Origin: Serpula lacrymans var. lacrymans S7.9
Taxonomy: Eukaryota; Basidiomycota; Agaricomycetes; Boletales; Serpulaceae
Reading direction: 5' to 3'
Assembly (NCBI RefSeq): GCF_000218685.1
Contig: NW_006763290.1
Location: 4,180,908 to 4,244,907, forward strand
Length of the DNA: 64,000 nt
The notes beneath the pieces are model-generated. The model saw only the letters and a program-made list of their open reading frames with translations, had not been told where the DNA came from and did no database searches. Both the position numbers and the translations under genes were made by a program. Within the stretch, counting starts at the first letter, position 1. Each line of letters opens with the position of its first letter. Below are positions 395 to 55,967 of the stretch, piece by piece.

Positions 395-1470
395 AGAGTC
401 AACCGGTACTGTACCTGCAAGCATAATTGTGGTGCAGGAAAATGGGTACACAAGGGCGCCTACCAGAGGCATCAAAAAGTGATTTTTGATCTCAGTGCAA
501 GCGCCTTTCAAACATCACAAGCTCAAGCACCCTCTAGTCATCAAAAAAACCAAGCAGGGCCTTCACTAGTTCAAGGAAATAGCCATATGAGGCAGGTTTT
601 GCATTTTCAGAATCTCTATATCACATGCTAACAATATTCAATTTACCACCGCTACTCTATCCTGACAGTTGGACTGAAAAAAACCTGAGTCATCCATGCA
701 AGACCAGCATCATCTTCACCAGGATATAAACACCAAAAATCAAGATTCAAACTCAATTACACCAGCACCTCAGAATCAGCCAAGAAACAATGACTCTGGG
801 TCTGAAGATAACAATCTGCATGACCAAGAATTTCCCAGTGAGTATGACCTTGAAGAAATTGAATGTCATGCTTGGCTAGAAGACCTCAAAAATATGACAG
901 CGTTTCTACGAGCCATGGAGAATGCTTCTTTTGAAGACAGCGTGCAGGACTTGACCCCAACTACCTCTATAGCCTCTGCAACCCACTTCAAGACAATCTT
1001 AGCCTCAATGATGACCCCTTCCTCAAGTTTTCCATACTATTCTACCTGAAAGGGAGAAATTTGTCTGAAGATTGCTACAATAGCACACATCAAGCATATT
1101 GTGAACTACATCCAGAACACGCACACAAGATCCTATTATACTACCAAGTGGAACAAGCTGTATCCAAACTAAGTGGTGTCCAATCTGTCGTTCATGACAT
1201 GTGCATAGGCACATGTCTTGCCTACACGGGGGTATATACTAATCTTGACGAATGTCCAATCTTCCACGAACTAAGATATGATCAAGACAAGTTAAGGCTG
1301 AGCAGAGGGACAAAAAAGGTAGCAAGACAGACCTTCCATACCATACCCATTGGATCACAGCTTCAAGCCCTCTGGCGTCATCCTGATAGGGCTGAATTGA
1401 TGAAATATTGCAATGCACAAACACAGAAGATTTTTGATCAGTTTGACAAGAATCAGGAATATCCGGATGC
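395..1470 (+). pseudogene. N-terminal fragment of a Tnp2/CACTA-like transposase
   Basis: Conceptual translation in shifting frames gives a Cys-rich N-terminal motif (CTCKHNCG...YQRHQ near 405-480), an acidic linker (about 700-1000), then a well-preserved block at about 1085-1450. That block contains KILLYYQVEQAVSKLSG, VVHDMCIGTCLAYTG and TIPIGSQLQALWRHP. These are recognisable as the pre-catalytic part of basidiomycete Tnp2-family (CACTA) transposases, which cut and paste DNA in the nucleus. The catalytic part is absent: the sequence runs directly into copia gag at about 1455-1475 in another reading frame. At least one frame change separates the acidic part from the conserved block, so it is non-functional. 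Confidence 0.6.
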
Positions 1471-4400
1471 ATGGCTTTCGCTATTCTCCAATCTCTCCCA
1501 TGCACTCCTGAATGGCAAATATTTCAGTCATCAGTAATCAACACGATTGAAGAAAATAGATTTACCTTTGATGCAGTTGAGATCTGGATCACTGCAGAAG
1601 TTGCACGACAGTCAGGGAAGGCCCCTGGAGGTTCCGAATCAGCACTCAAATCCGAGGAGAAATGGTGTAACTTCCACAAAGCCAAATCACACAACACCTC
1701 GGAGTGTCGAACACTTCAGTCAGCTGAAAAAGGTCAAAGGAAGAAGGGAAAGGAAAGACACAAGAATAAAGGAAAAGAGAAGGAAAAGGCAAATACAGCA
1801 GAGCAATCATCCAGATCTGACTCCGAGGAGGAACAGAGTCATATTGCATTGGATCATGTACATATTTCCAAGCCCCTTGCTAAACACATTCAAGCTTACC
1901 TTGTGTCGGAACCCGATAAGACCAAAACAACAATTATTATTGACTCCGGAGCAACATCCCACATGGTCCCTCACCGCTCCTGGTTTGAGCCAGGAACATA
2001 CCATGTTCTGCATCCTCCGAGGACGATCAGTTTTGGGGATGAATCCTCTGTAAATGCTATTGGCATTGGAACAGTAATCCTACAAGCAACTGTTGGCAAA
2101 AAGGACTACAACATTGCACTGTCAAATGTCTTACTTGTGCCAAACTTCACGTTAGCACTCGTCTCTGTCCACAAATTGTCCAAAACGGGGTTATCAACAC
2201 TTTTTCCAGCAGGGTCAAATGCTTGTGAAGTTCGGAAAAAGGAGGAACTTATCCTCACTGCGTTACACAAGCGAGGACTTTATCACATCCAAGCAAAACC
2301 CGAAATCAACCTGGATTCAGCTTTTGCAGCAGTAGATGTAAATTTATTGCACAGGAGAATGGGACACATTGGAATGGACCGCTTGCAACGAATGGTTACA
2401 AAAAGACAGCTCCAGGACATAGACACCCTTACCGGAACCCTGGAGTTTTGTGAACCTTGTGCTTTAGGAAAGATGAAGAAATTACCTTTCAAGTCCACTG
2501 GAGGAAACCGAGCCAAGCACCCCATACAAATTGTGCACACAGATGTTGAAGGACCAATCAAACCAACTTCCAGGGAGGGTTTTTGGTACTGGATTATCAT
2601 TGTAGATGATTTCTCCAAATTTCCATGGATATATTTCCTAAACATAAAAGTGAAGCTCTGGAACAATACAAGCAATGGAAAGAAGATGTCCAAATATTCT
2701 TCCGGACTCATTTGGGAGAAGAAAACTTCAGCCCCACAACATACAGCCAGCTGATGTGGAAAAAGTCCGAATACAGCTAGACAGCCTGTCCATTGGATCA
2801 GCTTCTGGAAGGCATACAACACCTCCAAGGAGTGATTCAACACCTTCAGGAGTGAGTGGGGCAACAAATACACAAATGCTGCTACTCCCTGGAGTACCTG
2901 CACAAGTTCCTAAAAGAGCAGTCATGCCTGCTAAAGTCCTAGGAGTACGCAGAAGCAGTCGCCAGACCCGTCCTGCAGACAAAAACCGAGATTATCAAAG
3001 GACTCTAGATGAGGAACAGTCTCGAAAAGAGCAGCATGATAACTCCATGGAGAAACCTAACACTCCTGAGGTTCATGAAGAAACATCTGATACAGAGGAG
3101 ACATTCTTTGCTGGAATAGCAAGTACCGGTCCATCTAACACAGACCTTCCAAGGACACTAAAGGAAGCCTTATCACGTCCGGATGGAGAATTATGGAAGT
3201 CTGCCTTGGAGGAGGAACTCCTGAGTCTCAATACTAATGCAGTATATGACACTGTTCCACTTCCAAAGGGAGTAAAACCCATCACATCAAAACCTATGTT
3301 CCAGATCAAGTTTGATCAAAATGGAAACATTGAGAGATACAAACTCCGGATTGTTGCACGAGGTTTTACTCAAAGGGAGGGGATTGATTACCAGGAGGTT
3401 TTTGCTCCGGTTGCAAACTCAGAGTCAATCCGAATTATTCTAGCCCTGGCAGCAAAGTACGACCTAGAACTTGATCAAATGGACGTATCCACAGCTTATC
3501 TCAATGGAGAACCTGAAGAAGAACTGTACATGCTTCCTCCAAGGGGTGTTCCTATCCAACCTGGATACTGCTGGAGATTTAAGAAATCCATCTACGGGTT
3601 AAAACAAGCTGGTCGTACATGGAACAAAACTTTTGATCGCAAGCTCCAGGAGCTCGGTTTCACAAGACTAAATGCAGAAACATGTCTCTATGTATTCCGG
3701 GACAACAAACAAATATGCTTTGTTGTTGTCTATATAGATGACCTCCTCCTAGGAGCTTCATCCCGGAAATTCATGGATATCACAAAAGCCAAACTCGAAT
3801 CCATATTCAAAATGCAGGACCTTGGAGAAGCAAAATACATCCTCGGAATAGAAATCCAACGTGATCATTCAAACAAAACAATATCCCTATTGCAACGCCA
3901 ATTCATTGACACAGTCCTGGAGCGTACTGGAATGAAGAACTGCAAACCAGTATGGACACCAATGGCCCATGGATTAAAACTCCTTGCAAATGCTCCAGGG
4001 GAAGATATTGTGCAACACAAGATGCATATTGAAGGGCGTCAAGTGTCATACCTCTCAATTGTAGGCTCCCTCATGTATGCCATGCTTGGAACCCGCCCAG
4101 ACATTGCCTACGTTGTTGGAATACTAAGCAGGCATAGCTCAGCTCCAAGGAGCCATCACTGGGAAGCTGCAAAATGTGTCCTCCGATATCTGAAAGCAAC
4201 ATGGGACATGGAACTACGATATGATGGCACAGATGTCTCCATGGACATGGATTTCTATGGATATTCAGATGCAGATTGGTCTGGAGACCCAGACACGTCT
4301 CGATCAACATCAGGGTTTGTCTTTATCACCATCCAAGGAGCAATTTCCTGGACAAGCAAAAGACAAAGCATGGTAGCTTTATCCTCCACGGAGTCAGAGT

Positions 4401-4747
4401 ATATTGGATTGAGCAATGCTGGACAACACCTTGCATGGCTTCGGACATTTTTTGAAGAAATTGGACATGCTCAAAATGGACCTACAACATTGCACTGTGA
4501 CAATCAAGCAGCTATCATTCTTACACGAGATCCACAGTTCCGTGCTCGCACAAAACACATTCAACAGAAATATCATTTTATCCGAGATGACTTAGTATCA
4601 AAGGGAGAGGCAGTAATCAGATATGTTCCTACAGGAGATATGGTTGCAGACATTCTCACTAAACCCCTCACTCATGAAAAACACTGGAAATTCTCTAAAG
4701 CTATGGGACTACGGTTGCACTCGAGTGGGAGTGACAAAACTGGATAA
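1471..4747 (+). pseudogene. Ty1/copia gag-pol polyprotein, element B (5'-truncated)
   Basis: Two overlapping open stretches (1471-2754 and 2675-4747) give, in order: the C-terminal end of gag, a zinc knuckle (CNFHKAKSHNTSEC), aspartic protease (IIDSGATSHM), integrase zinc domain (HRRMGH...CEPCALGK) with only the start of the integrase core (HTDVEGP), reverse transcriptase with catalytic YIDDLLLGA, and RNase H with the copia signature ending TKHIQQKYHFIRD and VADILTKPL. This order is diagnostic of Ty1/copia. Most of the integrase core is missing: the first frame breaks down near 2660 and the second resumes in the variable linker before RT. The gag N-terminus and 5' LTR are absent and replaced by the Tnp2 fragment, so the copy cannot be autonomous. 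Confidence 0.92.
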
Positions 4748-6640: not shown

Positions 6641-6791
6641 TAGAGGTTTGGTGCAGGAGTATCGGAGTGGACAACCACATGTGGAAATGGAGCGTAGAGT
6701 TATGCTGACTGGCAGCCCACAAGGAACATAATGCGGAGTATACTGATGGTTTGGTAGTCTCGTGACCAGAGCTAGGAGGGAATGTCCTAGC

Positions 6792-6833
6792 GTCTGGTGA
6801 CTTTTGATAGGTGACGAGTGCATCGAGTCACAC
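6792..6833 (+). repeat. Left terminal inverted repeat of RecQ-DUF6589 unit
   Basis: The outer block is GTCTGGTGACTT (6792-6803) and the inner block is AGTGCATCGAGTCACAC (6817-6833). Both recur exactly, inverted, at 12155-12196 with the same spacing of 13 variable bases. The inner block overlaps a near-palindrome (GTGAC...GTCAC) that could be a protein-binding site. Confidence 0.8.
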
Positions 6834-6913
6834 CTGTTGGCTGCGTTTGGCAATATTGTTACAAGAACCGAGCAGTAGCTTACAAATCAAAATCTTATCT
6901 TATCTTTCAAACC

Positions 6914-9478
6914 ATGATCGATCCCACTGAACGTGAGAGCCTGTCTAATTGCAATAGCAGTGAGGCTTTCGAGGACGATAACAATCCATTTGCCCCCTTA
7001 GCGGTTAATAATACACATAATTCATTATCATCCACTGATACAGAGCCCAGTAGTGACCCAGAGAACTTAAATATACGCCCTGTCCAGCTACAATACACAT
7101 CTCAACTCAAGACACAACTCACTGGCACTCCTGCTTCCAAAGTTCGCTTGGTGCTGGAATACATGAACATGCTTGGGCTCAACCTTCCCTTATTCTTAGA
7201 TTATCTCAGCTGGGGCAACTACAACTGCATCACGGACCCCAAGATCCGCTATGAAAGGACAGCTCTCATGGTAAGTGATGAGCTTCCAGTGATACTGGCC
7301 CGCTGGCATAAACCACCCCAGACCAAGGGCACTCACAATGCACGTGCAACTGGGGGAAAGGATGTACTCAAGGTGTTTGCCTTCCCATGTGTTAGGGAAG
7401 CTATTGAAAGAGAATTAAATAGCATACAGGAGTTAGCAAAGTGCCTGCCCGAAGATGTCAGTGAAGAGGGTTTTACCAGCCTGTTAATTGACGACTTGGT
7501 CCTCAAACTCCAGAGTCCTGGCTTTGGAGGCACACCCAAGCTGTGGGAGCTCCTTCAGCAACTAACAAGAACCCCTACACAAGAGAAATGAAACTCTGGG
7601 CAAAATACATATCTTGTGAGTGCTTTTACAGTCTCTATATGTTTTTCTTTTCTCATTCGGCCCAGGTGATCATCTCAATCATTTTTCAGCTAATGTTTTC
7701 CTGCTCACATCATCATAATAGGTGGCCAAAGCTTCTCACTACCTTCCTTCGCTCTCAGGGCATTTCTGCCATTCTTCCAACCAAATGGACAAGGTTCAAC
7801 ACCTTGTCAAATCCCACCCATTTGTCATATCCCACGACAACCTCAACATCCCATTTCGTGTATATTCACAGCGTATCGACAACCAAAGCCACTTTGACTC
7901 TGGGACTGCAGCAACTGTATATTTCCAACCAGATGCTCCACCTATTGCTCCTCTGTGTAATTGTACACTACAGGAATACCGTGCAGCTGGTCGTTTAACT
8001 CCCCTAAGTACATCTGAAATATTTGCATTGGAATGTGAAGCGGCACCTTCAAGACATGTTCGAGACACATTCCGTGTTTTACGGTATTTGATTGAATGTC
8101 CTGAATTCAACTTTGCAACCTATTCACACCAAGATGATCTGGTGTTCACCCCTCCTCTGCCAATTCAACAACTTCATTCTGGCCAAGCATATGTTACACA
8201 ACAGTACATGCTTGGGACAGTCCATATCGAAGAAGCAAGTTATGAAGGGAACGATAAACTATTGACAGAATGGTTTAAGCAGCTTGGGCTGCATTCTGAT
8301 GAAGAACAACGCCAAACTGGCATGGAGCGTGTCATTCCATGGGTGGGTGACCAGCTCACTATTGAGCGCCTCTGTGGCCTATACAAGTTTTGTGCCCAGG
8401 ATCATAATGCTTTTGACCGAATGGATTGGATCATCCCAGTGTTTGGCTGGTTCCACTTACAAATGGCCTTCGCCAATTCACTCCATAAGCAATACCTTGG
8501 GGCTACAGCTGGTCGTGGATTAATGCATGCATTCACATTGCTGGAACGCAAAGGACTGAACTATGTACAGACCAAGGGTCCGTTTCATCAAAGCTTACGT
8601 GACACTATCACTCATGTTGCCAAGGCTCACAACAAATAGCTGAATCAATCATTCAAAAGTTGACATCAACAGATGTGCTCGACAATATCAAACTACAGCC
8701 AGCTGAGAAGCAAGATCAGGTATTCCGCCAATCTGTGATGTGGAACCATGACGTGTTGAGGTATTTGGACCTCCATGATGCCATCAAGAATGGAGATGTT
8801 GGAGTTATGGAACAATCACTACCTCACCTACTCTTTCACTTCGCAGAAGGGGGTAACTCAAAGTATACAATTGAAATACTCAAACTTCTTCAATGTATCC
8901 ATCATGAATGGCCCCCCCAAGTCAAGTAAGTTGCTTAACTATAACAGAATTGACAGCGCACTGACAGGCACACAGGCAGTTTATACAAGACAGATTCTGG
9001 CTAATGAACACCACTGGCCTGCCACACCAATTCTTCGCTATAGACAAAGGCCAGGAGCACAACATCAAAGAAAGTAAGGTCAGTATTTCTATTCTATGCA
9101 GGTGTTTCAATTACACAGTTTTTGCAGGTGACATTTGCTGTGCATGGTGTTCATGCTACTTGGGATCTCATGAAAGATCGAGCACCTGCACTGCCAACAC
9201 TTCGAGCTGTCCGAAAACACTTGGAGACACAAATCCAACCCCTCCGACGAGGCATCTCCCTTACAGATCCTAGCAAAGGGAAGGATCTTGAGCGTCTGCA
9301 TGATGCCTACACAAGCTCACAGGTTGACATTGAAGTAGAGGGTCATACAGCTAAAACCAAAGCAGATATCATTCCAGATGTCGTTACTAATAGTGCACTC
9401 AACATTGTCACCCTCAAAACAATGTCGAACTGGTGGGACAACCGTGATTACAAGCAATCTATGGAGGAGACTTGGTAG
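6914..9478 (+). pseudogene. DUF6589-family protein, decayed (candidate transposase)
   Basis: The likely start is ATG 6914 (CAAACC ATG), 80 bp inside the left inverted repeat. The N-terminal part (SKVRLVLEYMNMLGLNLP ... GTPKLWELLQQL) leads into a conserved core: IPFRVYSQRIDNQSHFDSGT, YMLGTVHIEEASYEGNDKL, ERVIPWVGDQLTIERLCGL, FGWFHLQMAFANSLHKQYLG, GRGLMHAFTLLERKGL. A C-terminal block (EHNIKE ... VTFAVHG) follows. Probable introns lie at about 7615-7664, 8926-8965 and 9070-9128. I recognise this as DUF6589, a basidiomycete-rich family of unknown function. Acidic residues in RIDNQ and WVGDQLT could be RNase H-fold catalytic residues (inference). Defects: TGA at 7589 where Arg is expected, and frame shifts near 7770 and 8635. 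Confidence 0.7.
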
Positions 9479-9838
9479 GCTGGTTATTTTCACTGTGTAG
9501 GCAGAAAAATGAAATATATATTATGTGCGACTATGACTACACAACATTATGCTAAGGACTTCAGTATTACACCTAAGGCCTCCTCACATGTGACTTACAA
9601 AGGAAAATGGGAGTGAATGGGGAGTGTGCGGTGTATGGAACAGTGTAGTTATAGTCACTTGGCATGAAGGGGGATGGATCGGCAATGTACACTGGCAGTC
9701 TATCTACAGGCCAGTTGGTGTATAAACAAGGGCCGGTTTGCGGTGAGGGTGTCTGTGGGACAAGAGGGTCAAGCTTGGCCTGAACTCTAACAGATACATG
9801 AGGCTATGCACAACCTTTACACTCGAAGAATCAACAAC
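9479..9838. other. Spacer between the convergent 3' ends
   Basis: About 360 bp separate the DUF6589 stop (9478) and the RecQ-like stop (9839). No gene, RNA or clear repeat was recognised; this is where both 3' untranslated regions should lie. Confidence 0.5.
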
Positions 9839-12016
9839 TTACTGAGAAAACCCTGGAAGGGGTACATTTTCCTTCTGACTTGTGCGAGGCTTTTTTTGGA
9901 TAGCCCTTGTATCATCCTTGCTCTTCGTCTTGATGACTCTTGCATCCTCCTCCGTCCTGACCTCCTCCTGCCTCTTCAACTTTGCAGCTTCTGTGGCCTG
10001 CCTCTTCAACTCTTGCTTCTCTATCTTGGCTGCTTCCCGCAGCTCCTTGTCCTGATGATCTACATCAGCCAACACCTTCAAAGCTTCCTCCCCATATTGA
10101 TCCACAAGTGCCCAAGGTGCAGGCAGGCCCTCACGAATCTCTTCAAGTGTTTTCCACCGGCGGTTTGAAGCAAGGGACGTCAATGTGGGGTCAGGGATAA
10201 GGACAACACCTGTGAATGAACAGTATAAGAAGTCACAGCACCGGACTTGAGCACACCAATGCTGGAGTGCAGCCTTGGCACGGCTCAAGTGCTGTAATAT
10301 TTGTCACACAGGTTCTTGAGTTATGGTGTGCATGGGTCTTTTGCCTGTTTCATTGATAGCTGTGCTGGGCGTGTCATTAGACAGTTCTGTATGTATACTG
10401 ATGGGACTGTTGGGAGATGAGGATGGGGGTGTATCTGAGTGCATCTTCTCGCAGTTATTGCAGCAAGGACCTGTGGGAGCTAATGGGCGTAAATAGGTGT
10501 TAGTGATACATAGCTTGCCTTACCTGATTGTCCTGGTGGGTTGTCAAAATGCCTATTAGCAACAAGCCTTCGACAACCTTTTGTTCCGATCCATTCACGC
10601 AAGGATGCCTCAATTTATTTCTTGAACTGTAGGTCTTCTTCTGGTGTTTCAAGCTCCAGGTCGGTTTTTTTCTCTCCTTCAACTACACACTCTCCATCTG
10701 ACAAAGGTTCTTCTTTGACCACCACACTAACACCTACCTTACGGAGCACTGAGGCCTTGACAAGCAAAATGGCTCGACCTTGCATTGAATGGAGCCCTGC
10801 TGCCTGACCAGCTCTCTGCATCCAATTGGTGAGGGATTTGGGCACTCCAAACTGGATTACCAATTCAACATCAGGTATGTCCAAACCCTACACAAACATT
10901 TTAAGCGGTTGTTCAACTAATGCTTTTTTCACCTTACCATCCCACCAATCTCTGTTACAACCAACAATCTGGTTGTCGCTTCACGAAATCTTTGTAAGGC
11001 AGTCTTCTTGGTGCGCACAGAACATCGTGAATTCAAGAAGTTGACTTGAGCCTGTAAACTCTCAGGTAAGAGTTTCCTGAGATGCCGGTGTGCAGCCTGC
11101 AATTCTTTTACAGTATTTACAAATACCAAGGTCCGTGGTATATCTTCCAGTCTTTTGGCGTTACTCACCAGAAAATTTAAAGGTGAATAGTCTTTGGAGT
11201 TGGGGATATAACGAACTTCATGAGTGATATTCAGTCGGTCATTCCCCAAGTTTAAATGAAAAGATTTTGCTGAGTCAATATGTAGCTTTGACCGAACATC
11301 GGCAAGAACATTAGGAGTCATTGTGGCCAAAGTTGCATATACAGGGATATTGAGTGGTAGAAAGGATCGCAATTGGTCAACCTGGGAATATGCAGGGCGG
11401 AAATCCCCTCCCCACTGTGAGATGCAGTGGGCCTCGTCAATGATATAGCCAAGCATGTGTCGCTGGAATGCAGGTGAGCATAACAAGCCTTTTAAACAAG
11501 GATTTTTTATAACTATTTCTGGGGAAGCGAAGATGGTATTATATTTTTGCTCGTTGAGCTCCTTGTGTAAGTGCTCGTCATATGTGTCTTCATTGACATC
11601 TGCAGACTGTATTCCCCACTGATAGAACTATGCAGCCTGGATTGATATGAAGCAAAGGTAAGTGACTGAGATATGTTACAAAAAGCTTACCTGTTCTTCC
11701 TCCAGACTTTTCAAAGGCGAGATGATGACAAGTATACGCTCTTTGTGAAGTAACAAAGGCATAGCAAAGGCAAGTGTCTTACCGGCGCCAGTACCCGCTA
11801 TTATTATACAGTCTATCCCAGTGTAAATGCCTCAGAGGCATCCAGCTGCCATTCATAAGGTGTCCGGCCATTGCATTGTGCTCCGACAGACTGAATCAGC
11901 TTTGCACGAGTTTCCTGGGAGGAGTAGTTGGTTTTTGCCCTTCGGGCTTCAGTGAGGAGCTTGTAGGAGTGTTTTATAGCCTCAGCATGTGATGAAGGAT
12001 ATGACGAGGCTGGCAT
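9839..12016 (-). pseudogene. RecQ-type DEAH helicase, decayed
   Basis: On the minus strand from about 12016: Walker A AGTGAGKT (about 11777-11800), SPLKSLEEEQ, an intron (about 11620-11690), FASPEIV, then DEAHCISQWGGDFRPAY (near 11390-11440), RTLVFVNTVKELQAAH, a short intron near 10885-10930, GLDIPDVELVIQFGVPKSL, and QRAGQAAG where RecQ proteins normally have QRAGRAGR. The C-terminal tail is Lys/Glu-rich and coiled-coil-like. RecQ enzymes unwind DNA 3' to 5' using ATP; this one belongs to the transposon-like class in basidiomycete genomes, not the housekeeping BLM/Sgs1 orthologue, since RQC and HRDC regions are not seen. Defects: a one-base frame loss just before Walker A (near 11815), in-frame stops at 10615-10617 and 10314-10316, and loss of the motif VI arginines. 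Confidence 0.8.
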
Positions 12017-12154
12017 TGACTTGTTGTTCACTGAAAATTGTCTCTGTTGCTCATACTACAACTTAGAGTCACGCATCATATTTTATTTGGTGTCCTAATA
12101 AGCATGATGACGAGAATCTAAAACTTCAACCCAAAAAGAGCAAAAAGTGTGACA

Positions 12155-12196
12155 GTGTGACTCGATGCACTTGTCCTGAGACGGAAGTCACCAGAC
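12155..12196 (-). repeat. Right terminal inverted repeat of RecQ-DUF6589 unit
   Basis: The inverted copy has AGTGCATCGAGTCACAC (12155-12171 on the minus strand) and GTCTGGTGACTT (12185-12196 on the minus strand), each identical to the left copy. Beyond it lies a separate perfect 9-bp inverted pair (TTTTGGGAA / TTCCCAAAA, about 12198-12235) that is not present on the left. Confidence 0.8.
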
Positions 12197-12369
12197 ATTT
12201 TGGGAATGCGTCTGAGTTTGACTGCTTCCCAAAACGCCTGGGTTCGAGACTAATGGTTCGGGAGTTTCAGACTCGGAGAACAAGTCCTTCAGAGGTGCCA
12301 GAGTTCTGTCTTCCGGTACAGATATGACAGCAGCGGGAACACAATCCCTAGAAATCAAGTAGCCTTGGC

Positions 12370-41699: not shown

Positions 41700-43640
41700 G
41701 ATGATACTTAACAGGATAATAATGCCAAAATCAAGTTTTTCTGTGATAGTGAGAAGGTCCAAATTGTGGTGAATTAGGCAAAGCAAATGGACACTGGTGG
41801 TAGTGGTAGTGAGATGAGCTAGGCTGAGGTGACACTGGCAATGTGAAAGACTGGTGAAGGCGGGATGGGCCAGGTTGTGCTGATGCAGGTGATGCAAACA
41901 GATGCTGGTGGTGGCGGTAGTGGGATGGGCTAGGCTGAGGTGACACCGACAATGTGAACAGCTAGTCGAGGTTGGATGGGCCAGGCTGTGATGATGCAGG
42001 CTGCAGTGTGGAGAATGGGGAAACTTGTTTATTCTTTGAGGGCCTAGTACCTTGTCCTTTTTGGGGGGCTCTTCTTGTTGGGGTACTGTTAAAGGTGGGG
42101 GTTGGTACATCCGGCGTTGGCGTGTCAGGGACCTGTTGGATGTCAACCGCGCCAGAGCCATCTTCCTCTTGCACAATTTGAGTGGCCTTCTTTTGACGTA
42201 TAAGTTTTGCAGCATTAAGTTGAACCTGTTGTAGGTTGGTAACCCAAATTATGTTTGTGCAAAGATGAGGGGAACTACAGAATGTCAAGAGTGTTGATTT
42301 CCAGGAAATAGGGTCTGATTGCTTGCCCGGCGTGGTTATTATGAATCTGGCCAAACCTAAGTCAGTCCCAACAAGTGTCATTGCTCTGGGTGGTTAGCAC
42401 TGTATTCCTGTATAGCTTGACCAGTATTTAGCCAGTTTTTGGTAGTGTTGTCCTGCCAGTAGCCTCCTGTAGCAATATGTGTAGCAATATGTTTAATAGC
42501 GTCTTGCAAAGCAAATGATTGCTGTATACTGAAGAGAGCCTGAAAATGTGGTTGAAAGATTCATTTTGTTTGGTTGAAAATAATAATGCAGGTCCAAATC
42601 TGCATACAAAAGCCTTGTAAGTGAAGTAGGAAATGAAACTTTGGCTTCTTTATTAGTATGCTGGGTGCGTATTTTGCAGTGATATTGAGAAAGTCTTCAA
42701 TGGTACATGAGAGTTGAGCTTAATTCTTTTGGCCTGTTAAATGCCTGTGATAAAAAGTGAAACCAGGCTCACCAAATACACCTCAGCATTGTCTATCTTG
42801 GTGTGCCGGAGAAGCACAACCAAGTTTCCAATGACACACCAACCATTGAGGACATCTTGCAAAACCAAGTCGTAAATAAGATATGGCATCACCTGTGCAA
42901 GACTTTTGAAGTGCTTGCCAATGAGGCCATCCTTGAATCAACAAATATATTCTGCACTCAATTGCACCAAATTTGAGGCCATCCTTGCTGATCAATTGCG
43001 CCTTGTTTGGAAAGTAGTCAGTAAATATGCTTTTTCAAGGAGCCAAACCTTTTGTGCCCAGAAATACTTGACTACACCCACAGTGTGCAAGACCTTGGTG
43101 GGGTTGTCTTGATGGATATTAACCCCAGGCATCCCCAATAGCGGGTTAATATGGTCTTCAATTGTTGAGTCATCAAGTAGACTTTCAAGCTCCCATTCTA
43201 GCTGTAGTCGCACTTCTGTTTCAGGAATATCAGTCTTTACTGAGTTGTATTTACGCAGTTGCTTGCCAAGCACCAGTAAATGTTGGATAATTGATGCAGT
43301 ATTGCTGTCACATATACCTGAATTAGTGCCAGCCACTTTGACTTTTTCAGTCTCACTGGACTCTAGAGAATAATCTAGTTGTTGCAAGATTTGTGCTTGC
43401 ATTTCTTGAGGAGTTTGAGCTTCCTGACACTTTAGAGAAAGCGAGTGAGATTAAACCAAGATAAAATGAAACAACGTACTCTGAATATGTTCTGATAGCC
43501 TTTGTCAGTTTTTTTCTGAGCTTGAGTACCACCAACTTTACAGGTTCTGCAAAAGAAATTACTTTTGAGCCCCATACAGCCACATTCCTCGGCATGCATA
43601 GGGTTATCCCCTGCAACAAAAAGAACATAAGGTAGTAATA
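41700..43640 (-). pseudogene. Transposon-like gene of basidiomycetes, decayed
   Basis: Read on the minus strand: IQHLLVLGKQLRKYNSVKTD, RLQLEWELESLLDD, NPLLGMPGVNIHQDNPTKVL, HTVGVVKYFWAQKVWLLEKA. After a frame shift near 42950 come GLIGKHFKSLAQVMPYLIYD and LVLQDVLNGWCVIGNLVVLL. Further on are QDAIKHIATHIATGGYWQDN, NWLNTGQAIQEYSANHPEQ and a stop near 42380. This matches a recurrent basidiomycete transposase-like protein (HxDxPxEVLH...GVVKYFW and QD.IKHIATGG.W signatures) for which I have no family name. The C-terminal part (42381 to 41730) is Pro/Ser-rich and low complexity. Two or more frame shifts and stops make it non-functional. Confidence 0.6.
41767..41999 (-). repeat. Two-copy tandem repeat of about 115 bp
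   Basis: Blocks GGTAGTG(A/G)GATG(A/G)GCTAGG, CTGAGGTGACAC and GGATGGGCCAGG, then TGTG.TGATGCAG, occur twice in the same order (about 41767-41885 and 41886-41999). In the minus-strand frame they encode Pro/Ser/His-rich units (SPQPS.SHY, QPGPS). Confidence 0.65.
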
Positions 43641-45300: not shown

Positions 45301-47556
45301 ATAGGTAGTTATGTTCCCTTGATACTAGAAATGGGCCTACAAAGTCCATTCCTATTGACCCCCATGATCTCCATGGGGTTGGCAGACTATACAGGAGACC
45401 CATAGGTCTTTGCGTACTGCTCTTTGTGATCTGACAGGTTCCGCATGTTTTAAAGAATTTGTCAATTTGTATCCCCATTTTGGGCTACCAATACCAGCAA
45501 TGTATATAGTTTGCTGTTTTGTTTGGTCCAAAATGGCCAAGCACCTCATGTGCTTGGTCCATGATAGATCCTGTCAGACCCTTGTCTTTTGTGATCCTCC
45601 TCGGAATGCAGAGTGCTTCCTGTCCATTCCGGTTTTTTATGAACAGCAGCCCCTCCTTCAACTTGATGGCAGAGGATGTTGTTTGATAGATTAAACTATC
45701 TTCGTTAGGACAACATAAGTGCTATAGCTATTCTTGATCTTCTGTTGAAACAAATCAGTTTTCTCTCTGAAATCCTGCAATTTTGGACCCCCTGAGAACT
45801 CCATTATTGTAGGATTGTTCTCTTCATCTATTGATTGATATAAGGGGCTCCTGGACCTTTTTTTGATGTTACAGCAAGCTCTCGAGCTTGCTGTTTCCTG
45901 TCTTTGTGTCTATCTGACACTTTCTGTCCCTTGTGTTCCCTTTCATTCCTAATGGTACAAATGGCTCACAATTCTAATAACCTGTCTATGGGCAGGTCAT
46001 CTCCCTGAGGGTCTAGTTGTGTATCTGCATTGACGTAGTCCTACCAAGGGTAGCTGTCCTCTGCATTATCATTTTTGAAGTAGTGTGATAAGCAGTCTGC
46101 CACCCTATTTGTGTCCCCAGGGACATAAATAATCTCAAAATCAAACCAAATGAGACATTCTATCCATTGAGTCTGACAACTCAATAGATTTCTTTGGGTT
46201 TTGAAAAAACTTCAAGGCTTGGTGATCTGTCACCATTTTTATTTTATACCCGAGTAGCTTCTCTTCCCATTTGAGGAGGGCTTCAAGTATTGCCAAAGTC
46301 TCTAACTTGAAGACATGGTAATGATGCTGAGCATCAGTCAACTTCTTTGACATGAAGCCTGCCAGCCTACCCCTGATACTGAGGTGTTGCAGATCACCCA
46401 TATGGGTTTTCCCATGCTCGGGTCTACTGCCTTAAGAATAGGGTATTTATATGCCATAACCTTAATGTGTTTGAAACATTGCTCATGTAAAGGTCTCCAG
46501 TGGAACAGGTGCCCATTCCTCATCATCCCTGAAATGGGGCCAGTATAGGCCGACACATCAGGCATGAAGTGCACCAGATACTCTGTCAAGCCCAGGAATT
46601 TTTGGATATTGTGCAGATTGCACACTGTCCTCCAATTCCTGATCTTAGACATCTTATCTGTGTCAGCATGAAGGCCCCTGTCATCGACCATATAACCAAG
46701 GCAGTCCAAGCTTGTGGAATAAAGATCGCACTTCTCTTTCTCTAGAAAGGGTTGTGCTTCTCTTAATTTCTCAAACACCAATGTCAGGTATTGTTTGTGA
46801 GGAACATATCATCGAGAAGTATGTGCAGAAATATTCCGATGTATTTTTGGAATATTACTGCCATTAGGCGTTGGAACGTTGCAGGGGCGTTTCAATTGCC
46901 TTGTTGCATTACATGACTGATAAAAGTCCCATATACCGTGGAAAAGGCTGTCTTCCAGACATCTTCCAGTTTAATTTGTACTTGTTTGTACGCATTAGGC
47001 ATGTCAATTTTTGAGTGGTACTTTGCTCTGGAGACATGCATTCTAATCTGACCCTGATCAGGGAATGGGGTAATATCCTTCTGAGTATTATTATTTTGTC
47101 TCCTGCAATCTATGACTGTTCTCAATGTGCTATTCTTTTTGGGAATGCACAACATTGGGGATGCCTGCGGTACACTGGTCATTTCCCACCACCCTGCAGT
47201 GGTATACTTTTCTATTTTTGCTATGAGCTGGGGCTTCATAGCATCTGAGCATCTTGGTAAATGTGCCACATACTTCTTATTGGGATTGATAAGTGGTATT
47301 TTGTGATTCACTTCCCTAAATGGGGGCATCCTGGGTGGAACTCCTCCCAGTATGTTCTTACATTGTGAGAACCATTTTTCCCTTAGTTGGGTTCTTTGGT
47401 CCTCCAACAACTCCTGTCCAGGAGTCTGCCCCTTTACTTCTTGCATTGGGTTCTCTTCCTCCATTATTTGTATAGCAGTCATCTGCTGTGCAAACTTTAT
47501 CTCTGTCCTTCTCTTTTGTGGGGCTAATTGCTCTTTTTTGTTTCTCTTAGCCATGG

Positions 47557-50026
47557 AACAAACTTGTTCTGTGGCTTTGTTATGGTTGTGATTAAATGTG
47601 CTTTTGCACGTCTGATCCCTACAGGAAAATAAGTGGGTAAGCTATACACTACATCAATTTGCTTCATCTCTAGATATTCTTTTGTTCCTACAGCCAGGAC
47701 CAAAGCTCAGAAGAGTTGTTAAATGCTGAAATTGGGAAAGGTGGAGTGCACAATGGATACTTCTTGCAATTCCAGTAGTACATTCTAACTCTCCCAATTT
47801 GCCATAGATTTTTTGCGTTTGCACCATTTTACATGGATTCTATGAGAGCTATATCATTGATTTTCAATTAGTGAGGCTGGAATGCATCTATGTTGCATCT
47901 GGCCATGAAATTTTTGCAAGCATCGTATATTTCAGTGAAGAGCTGGGCCTGTAAGTAAGTTAGTGTATGGGGCTCACTCTTTGTGGGGTGCCGCTCTTGT
48001 TGAAAGGAGTTTAAAATCACCAGGCCATGATGTTGTGCCATTCACTCGCAGATATATATGTTATACAAAGGTTCAGTTATGACCAGGAGAGAAGGAACAA
48101 GTTGTACCTTGTGTAGGTTTGTGAAGTTTTCCCAATAGCACTTACAGTTTGCAGCAGCCAAAATGCTAAAAAGGTCAATGGCCAGATTGATTTGGGGTGA
48201 GGGGTACCATTAACACCCCGTTTGAACAACCAGATTTTTCTGAGTCTTCCAATGATCCAAAATGTGAAAGGTGCAGTTGTTATGATGTCTCACAGATAGT
48301 ACAACAAGTCCTTCTTGTGTGTTTTCACACCCTAATTATATTTGAGGGGCAGGTCGTTGAAGTTGTAAATATAAAATGCATGATTATTGTAATTAGAAAA
48401 GACATGGATTTGCCTGATATGATCATTAAAGTTGGTGCAGCAGAGGTTGAGAAGGTGTTATATTGAATCAGATTGTTGTTAAGAATGTGCCATTCAACCA
48501 ACAGCAAATTGCACCTTGTTATTATTGCTTTGATTTTTGGAATGTGAATCACTGTGTAATGGTTATTATAGATGTTGGTGCAAACCTGAGCAAGAACATA
48601 CCTGTCTGGTAGCAAATTAGATGTTAGTTTTTGTATTTTGTCACTAATCAAGTGATTTTTGTCTTGAAAATAACTGTGGGCAGTGGTAAAGATATCCTGG
48701 GTGAAAGCGAAAAGGACCTACATTACAGTGGTCTGGTCAGATGCTTCAGTGTGTCAAGCAAGAGTTTGGGACGGTTTTGAAGGATCAGTCTCAGAAAACA
48801 CACCCATTAGCAGGTAAGATTGACTTCAGGAAATTCTGGGTTTCTTCAAAGAAGTGAAATGGGGAGAGGGAGAAAATGCAGGAGCATTACACTTAGTTGC
48901 AGGCATTTTTGTAGAATGGTAGGTGGGTAGTGCAATGCTAGTAAAAATCTCCATTGTTTAGTTTTAATGATTGCAATGTTGGCAAAGATGTGTAAATATG
49001 TATGTAGTGGTTTTTGTTTGGGCGCAAATTGTATCAGATGTGAGGGCAAGGGGCAGTGGAGCAAGTTTTTGGTGTGAAGAAGGTTTGAATGAATTCACAT
49101 TGTGGGGATCTGATCAGAAAGAACTTGAATTTGAAGCACATTCTAAGGGGAAAAGTCTTATAAAGAGCTCAAAGAAAAGAAGGCCACAGAAAATGTTGTT
49201 GCAATGAAAAAGTTTCAATCATAGGGTGAACCTTTAGAGATTTAGGAGATGTCGGCAGTGAACCAGCCACAAAAAAATGGAGTAGTGGTCAAGCCTGAGT
49301 CACTTGTTTTATTGCAATTGCAAGGTGAAACAAATAATATTTTTTTTCTGCAATGCTGAGCGAAAAGATGTCAGTCAGAGTTTCTAGAGAAACTATACAT
49401 ATGCTGCAAAACTAAATGTAAAATATTTCACATTTATTCATCATTTTCAAATACTAATTGTGGCTTTGAAAGCAATGATGACACATAAGCCAAGGGTTTT
49501 GGGGCTTTTATGGCATTGGAATGCCCAATGATGATAAGATATGAATGGAAAAATGAGTTGGGAAAAAAGTGGTGGAAGGAATTTGATACCCACAGTGCAC
49601 AATTGATTGACAGGAGCGAGTTGCAGGACATGTTCCATTTTGAGAGGAGCATGAACAGAGTGCAATGGAAAGCTTAACATCTACAAAATCACCAGTGTGG
49701 AGCAGAGTGTGCAATGTCTACTCTTTGACACTTGCGTGCAACTTTTTCATGACTTAGTACATTCTCTGAAGGTCAATAACATTTCATTTTCCTCATTTTT
49801 TTCATTAGCACACTTGCCAAACAAATTTTTGTCATATTTTCATCTGTAGCCACAGAAGGTGGTGTATATAGCACAGTGGACGTGTGTTGTGTGTTGTTAT
49901 TGAACATTTCTGCTCGGAGTAAGGAACTCACTACTTTGTTTACTTTGTCATTCTGGTTATTTGACAAAGGCACAGTCTCTAATGCATAAAAAGGGTTAAT
50001 AGGCATGTTTATCACATCAGACACAT
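47557..50026. other. Decayed element DNA, mostly unreadable
   Basis: This lies between the gypsy and Helitron relics. Short minus-strand frames exist (for example 48325-48651 and 49773-50066) but show no motif I can assign. They may be the eroded helicase part of the Helitron, whose PIF1-type domain should lie here; Walker motifs were not found. AT-rich and CpG-poor. Confidence 0.4.
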
Positions 50027-55781: not shown

Positions 55782-55967
55782 ACCTAGGTGCATATGGGAC
55801 AGGACCTAATCAGATATGGGATGAGCCCTAGTGTATGTGGGATAAGATTTAGGCATATATGGGATGAGACCTAGATGTATATGGGATGGGACCTAGGTGT
55901 ATATGGGACAAGACCAAGGTGCATATGGGACAAGACCTACGCACATATGGGATGAGACCTAGGCATT
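55782..55967 (+). repeat. Degenerate minisatellite, ATATGGGA-type units
   Basis: About seven imperfect units of roughly 25 bp share a core of (C/T)ATATGGGA(C/T)(A/G)(A/G)GACCTAGG. The same core occurs singly at 61970, 62400 and 62576-62660 near the other end of the composite element, suggesting subterminal repeats. Unit length varies and there are no unique spacers, so it is not a CRISPR. Confidence 0.7.

Follow-up and report, generated by a model that had tools for sequence, protein, structure and literature searches.

Target-site duplications are 8 bp long in hAT (Hermes) and P elements, 9-11 bp long in Mutator-like elements (MULE) and consist of TTAA in KolobokH; Helitrons encode a Rep/HUH nuclease and insert without a target duplication. 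Terminal inverted repeats are a trait of AcademH, and the nuclease of the lineage AcademX is of the XPG type. AcademH itself is reportedly the helicase-encoding lineage of Academ, present in animals and fungi (Kojima 2020, Mob DNA 11:15). The consulted parts of PMC10045372 describe AcademX as the nuclease-encoding lineage of the Academ superfamily and give duplications of 3 or 4 bp for AcademX and of 9 or 10 bp for AcademH. Likewise, the consulted parts of PMC10799480 report AcademH from Basidiomycota, Ascomycota and Mucoromycota, name the DEAD and Helicase_C domains, and mention KolobokH alongside AcademH as another helicase-carrying group. In the mushroom Marasmius oreades, non-autonomous Academ elements were classed via terminal motifs and duplication length, as stated in an excerpt of PMC8290104. 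Here we analyse a 64,000-nt stretch of the genome of Serpula lacrymans var. lacrymans S7.9 (contig NW_006763290.1; hereafter the window), which contains a DUF6589 gene and a RecQ-type helicase gene between inverted repeats. We conclude with high confidence that this element is an AcademH-type DNA transposon moving by cut-and-paste, present here as a decayed copy, with DUF6589 as its DDE transposase and the RecQ-type helicase as a dedicated accessory.

Results

Element boundaries, target-site duplications and empty sites

All positions refer to the window, and copies were compared within the 42.6-Mb assembly (29 contigs), to which the genome counts below apply. A first-pass annotation had taken two equally spaced inverted blocks of 12 and 17 bp as the edges of an element spanning 6792..12196. 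The blocks are indeed present, 9 nt apart on each side, and the exact inverted 17-mer (6817-6833 / 12155-12171) lies inside a slightly longer block 2 (Table 1). With up to three mismatches this 17-mer occurs twice in the window compared to 0.10 expected occurrences, and with up to two mismatches it has 37 genome matches, compared to 5 for the reversed control pattern. The element ends were mapped from 20 stretches around other 17-mer matches and then from 20 wider stretches. Homology between genome copies of the window's family ends near 6755 and 12252, where the termini were placed, so that the element measures 5498 bp and reads TAGTCTCG...CGAGACTA. Thus, the blocks are inner, subterminal repeats, the true termini lie 37 nt (left) and 56 nt (right) further out, and the span 6792..12196 consequently leaves out both the actual termini and the flanking duplication. 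Families B and C, sisters of the window's family A, have the same outer ends and inner blocks.

The duplications flanking the window copy, ATGGTTTGG and ATGGTTCGG, differ by a single C/T exchange. A 9-bp duplication with 8 or 9 matching positions is found in 14 of the 15 elements for which both ends were located, 9 also being the best duplication length in 14 of these 15 end-pairs, whereas none of 210 mismatched-flank controls, which combine flanks of different insertions, reaches 8 matching positions. The exception, L034/L035 on contig C5, matches at 3 of 9 flanking positions; it has both B-family ends without a target duplication and is possibly a recombined or rearranged copy.

Empty sites could be obtained because the element is inserted within another repeat, to which the flanks 6695-6754 and 12262-12321 belong and for which 38 further genome matches were listed. 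When the flanks on either side of the window copy were joined, 40 matches were listed; two of them stem from these flanks themselves, and of the remaining 38 matches, 37 cross the joint at 72-87% identity. The seven empty sites retrieved show no gap at the joint and one target copy each; ATGGTTCGG or ATGGTTTGG is present in five of them, and the remaining two are one base off. For the short element L049, many copies cross the joint at 91-95% identity, and three retrieved target copies hold three additional bases inside the duplicated stretch which are missing in both insertion flanks. For L032, matches besides its own flanks are chiefly to the left flank, ending by position 85.

Seven short elements of approximately 0.7-2.2 kb (L029, L031, L032, L033, L042, L043 and L049) possess both ends and their own 9-bp duplications, and some short copies retain helicase remnants. 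L029 and L031 lack an identical stretch (approximately 7510-11275 of the window) and align with each other over 1736 nt across the gap, but occupy different sites with different target duplications. With a common deletion at distinct sites, this form has transposed in its shortened state, with the enzymes supplied in trans. The remaining short copies could also represent deletions after insertion.

The DUF6589 gene, the helicase gene and their linkage

In line with the first-pass annotation, which had described two decayed convergent genes between the repeats, Pfam identifies DUF6589 (PF20231) on the plus strand and a DEAD/Helicase_C gene on the minus strand, each broken over several frames. 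In the predicted structure of DUF6589, the core is RNase H-like and holds conserved D, D and E residues, the first putative catalytic Asp being placed on the first strand of this core. Among solved structures, DDE transposases match it best; the fold resembles that of Hermes (hAT), and no MULE structure is among the structural matches listed. By sequence, the core yields no match to solved structures up to E = 1. Up to E = 10, the DUF6589 protein P0001 has no second Pfam family, including any hAT or P-element family, and P0001, P0012 and P0087 have no MULE match. Given the predicted fold with its D/D/E residues and the DDE transposases as best solved matches, DUF6589 is very probably the transposase of the element. 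PF20231 is found in all 120 relatives listed, out of 274 found, and the organisms named among them are, as we take it, Agaricomycetes. No DUF6589-XPG fusion was found among 7984 scored longer-protein candidates, a weak negative, as scoring was confined to candidates with the most shared words; the one hit has DUF6589 only. DUF6589 was not found mentioned in the literature searched.

The window helicase and the family-B copy L016 match the NCBIfam model recQ_fam (1.6e-21 and 3.7e-23, both below the model cut-off) as well as solved RecQ5, BLM, WRN and RecQ1 chains, and no Rep or Pif1 Pfam domain was detected in the pieces scanned. RecQ helicase genes near chromosome ends (subtelomeric) are reported for other fungi in the consulted part of PMC5576322; since the element is located near position 4.19 Mb on a contig of 5.73 Mb, away from the contig end, we rejected the reading as such a subtelomeric gene.

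To quantify gene linkage, at least 108 DUF6589 matches were merged to 72 loci and at least 53 helicase matches to 46 loci, both match counts being lower bounds. For 26 of the 46 helicase loci a DUF6589 locus is located within 6 kb, compared to 1.0 expected for uniform placement, and 25 of these 26 linked pairs are convergent. The linked helicases include some that are merely 24-38% identical to the window helicase. Unpaired within 6 kb are 20 of the 46 helicase loci and 47 of the 72 DUF6589 loci. Within this genome, the RecQ-type helicase regularly partners DUF6589; the first-pass annotation had suggested it as an unwinding partner.

Seven divergent gene pairs were selected; pieces of four were retrieved and three were analysed for ends, with L056 and L057 not used. 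Two of them (contigs C4 and C18; L058/L059 and L062/L063), here called family D, combine DUF6589 and helicase with inverted CAGGCTCC ends, perfect 9-bp duplications and further inner inverted repeats, while no ends were found for the third (contig C3; L060/L061). Thus, the 9-bp duplication length reaches beyond the close relatives of the window copy.

Terminal stem-loops

In families A, B and C, a CCAGA...TCTGG inverted repeat is located directly inside the outer 8 bases at both ends. From 45 rows, with identical end sequences counted once, 34 distinct ends were kept for folding. Of the eleven rows dropped, ten are chance matches in the interior or lie in a shifted register, the eleventh, L041, is a genuine end, and the ends L050 and L053 fell outside the set as they failed the inner-block filter. 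With DNA parameters and dinucleotide shuffles, 31 of the 34 ends reach z < -2 (median -4.4), the failing ends being L040 (-1.2), L043 left (0.8) and L047 (0.5). L041, folded separately, gives z = -7.8 (-5.9 with 80 nt), with which the tally would become 32/35. For windows of up to 80 nt, 30 of 34 ends pass compared to 3 of 51 control windows. As the ends are related copies, their folds are not independent trials.

The inner stems of seven representative ends fall into three sequence classes (A-right/B-left/B-right; A-left/C-left; two C-right variants). Duplexes of own arms have an average energy of -12.5 kcal/mol and those of swapped arms one of -7.1 kcal/mol. In four of seven rows the strongest pairing is with the own arm, and in the other three the own arm is beaten solely by members of the same class. 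The C-right inner arm pairs with B-right (-9.9) nearly as well as with itself (-10.7), and this class is therefore not cleanly distinct. The ends of family D show no significant stem-loop (z -1.2 to 0.7). Since they fold no better than shuffles, the stem-loop as a hallmark of every DUF6589-RecQ element had to be rejected: it is a feature of the TAGTCTCG clade, and DUF6589-RecQ elements in general can do without it.

Two readings of these arms were weighed. The chances are about balanced that they merely represent inverted transposase-binding sites on double-stranded DNA that act without folding. The outer arm (CCAGAC/GTCTGG) has a conserved sequence that repeats the motif of inner block 1, family D lacks a significant stem-loop although its gene pair and duplication length are the same, and the near-equal pairing of C-right with B-right likewise fits simple binding sites. 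What such sites leave unaccounted for is the better-than-shuffled folding of most ends and the occurrence of three inner-stem classes with pairing stronger within than between them. In a tentative and rather improbable alternative, ends of the TAGTCTCG clade would act as folded DNA: the stem-loop, situated at both ends between the outer terminal repeat and the inner repeats, would be preserved through its base pairing, not its sequence, and would be extruded or resolved by the element's own RecQ helicase; a DDE cut-and-paste element would then use a helicase-made single-strand or cruciform structure. No published description of stem-loops at such ends was found, the literature on terminal hairpins having been surveyed at title level only.

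Table 1. Coordinates of the element and its features in the window.
Feature	Position	Strand	Basis or remark
Whole transposon copy	6755..12252	none	homology ends between independent copies, 9-bp flanking duplication, empty sites
Left target-site duplication ATGGTTTGG	6746..6754	+	8/9 identical to right copy
Right target-site duplication ATGGTTCGG	12253..12261	+	8/9 identical to left copy
Left terminal inverted repeat TAGTCTCG	6755..6762	+	common to family A, B and C copies
Right terminal inverted repeat (CGAGACTA on +)	12245..12252	-	
Left-end stem-loop (CCAGAGCTAGGA ... TCCTAGCGTCTGG)	6763..6797	+	DNA folding z = -4.8 vs dinucleotide shuffles
Right-end stem-loop (CCAGGCGTTTTGGGAAGC ... GCATTCCCAAAATGTCTGG)	12191..12244	-	z = -5.2 vs dinucleotide shuffles
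Inner repeat block 1, left (12 bp)	6792..6803	+	100% complementary to right block
Inner repeat block 1, right	12185..12196	-	
Inner repeat block 2, left, contains AGTGCATCGAGTCACAC	6813..6833	+	21 nt, 95% complementary
Inner repeat block 2, right	12155..12175	-	21 nt, 95% complementary
Decayed DUF6589 (PF20231) transposase gene (probable), several frames	6914..9478	+	Pfam 7998-8630, 8630-8926, 9119-9250 (the last by itself below the family cut-off)
First putative catalytic Asp codon (SHDNLN; D310 of P0001)	7836..7838	+	58 Asp + 4 Asn of 62 in alignment A1
Second putative catalytic Asp codon (GDQLT; D481 of P0001)	8349..8351	+	62/62 in alignment A1
Putative catalytic Glu codon (KGQEHNIK; E725 of P0001)	9055..9057	+	61/62 in alignment A1, in helix
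Decayed RecQ-type superfamily 2 (SF2) helicase gene	10615..12055	-	open reading frame (ORF) pieces 10615-10887, 10929-11627, 11813-12055 (the last without Pfam match, assigned by eye)
Helicase Walker A motif GTGAGKT	11775..11795	-	
Helicase DEAH box, then RecQ-like CISQWGGDFRP loop	11427..11438	-	ORF 10929-11627, alignment to RecQ5

Other repeats were noted as well, the coding ones from ORFs by eye. The family-C copy L018 (1757-4717) contains an apparent nested Helitron-like coding sequence. In the window, 935-4747 (+) holds frames of a Copia-type long terminal repeat retrotransposon (gag-, integrase- and reverse transcriptase-like), and 46892-47641 (-) a fragment resembling a Gypsy-type reverse transcriptase. 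Tandem arrays with periods of 22/44/66 bp and 111 bp lie at 55782-55966 and 41794-42000.

Discussion

Compared to the described systems, the element resembles AcademH in several respects: a RecQ-like DEAD/Helicase_C helicase resides within the same element, the duplication is 9 bp long (14 of 15 end-pairs and the empty sites) compared to 9-10 bp in AcademH, the transposase is of the DDD/E type as judged from the predicted fold and the conserved D/D/E residues, and the termini are inverted (TAGTCTCG in families A-C, CAGGCTCC in family D). AcademX differs by its 3-4 bp duplications and its nuclease, in contrast to 9 bp and a RecQ-type helicase here. The Marasmius oreades elements are likewise mushroom elements of the Academ class, and are set beside ours by description only. 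With hAT and P elements, 8 bp stand against 9 bp, and Pfam matches are missing, although the predicted fold resembles that of Hermes; the duplication length does fall within the MULE range, for which Pfam matches are equally lacking in the three proteins searched. KolobokH shares the carried helicase but differs by its TTAA target, as the 9-bp duplications here are without TTAA. We therefore regard the element as a new family within a kind already known, the AcademH type, a membership based on architecture and duplication length, with the Academ proteins compared by description only.

The first-pass annotation had instead favoured a new superfamily defined by this gene pair. As a rival reading, such a superfamily would comprise a DUF6589 transposase unrelated to Academ and an independently acquired RecQ helicase. 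The silence of the searched literature on DUF6589, the lack of a second Pfam family in P0001 and the missing AcademX-type fusion with XPG would all suit such an origin. However, a DDE transposase combined with a helicase and with 9-10 bp duplications in fungi is how AcademH is described in print, to the extent covered by the consulted parts of PMC10799480 and PMC10045372, and it is unlikely that these three traits came together in another, independent lineage. Because the AcademH description fits, a new superfamily was rejected as the leading view, and we judge it quite improbable. The comparison with rolling-circle elements, to which the carried helicase invites, fails because of the inverted termini and the 9-bp target duplication; taken with the DDE/RNase H-like predicted fold and the lack of Rep or Pif1 Pfam domains in the pieces scanned, this leaves a Helitron-like element virtually no probability. 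The idea that host genes and scattered repeats came together here by chance, without any mobile element, has no point found in its favour, is contradicted by ends present in many copies, by target duplications and empty sites and by the gene linkage, and can be dismissed.

The AcademH-type transposon is thus left as the best explanation. The first-pass annotation had proposed a DNA transposon, to be checked by shared ends and target duplications among copies, by empty sites and by comparing DUF6589 with RNase H-fold transposases. Within this genome, all these comparisons corroborate it. Directly established are the ends, the duplications, the empty sites, the movement of a short form as such, the linkage of the two genes and a predicted fold that resembles transposases and has the conserved D/D/E residues. 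For catalysis, end recognition and the helicase step we infer the following course. DUF6589 would recognise and pair the composite ends, consisting of the outer 8-bp TAGTCTCG repeat, the stem-loop and the two inner inverted blocks. It would then excise the element and join it to staggered target cuts, yielding the 9-bp duplication. The convergently encoded RecQ-type helicase presumably opens the DNA at the ends or the target, or aids gap repair.

If the stem-loops at the ends prove important, they would hint at a reason for the element to carry a RecQ helicase. With its defined ends and 9-bp duplications, its empty sites and its short derivatives, the element provides a basis for an assay of a helicase-carrying cut-and-paste transposon. 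Moreover, the results point to a likely function for a Pfam family that so far has none assigned and is common among mushroom-forming fungi, and DUF6589 genes could then be handled as transposon genes in fungal annotation.

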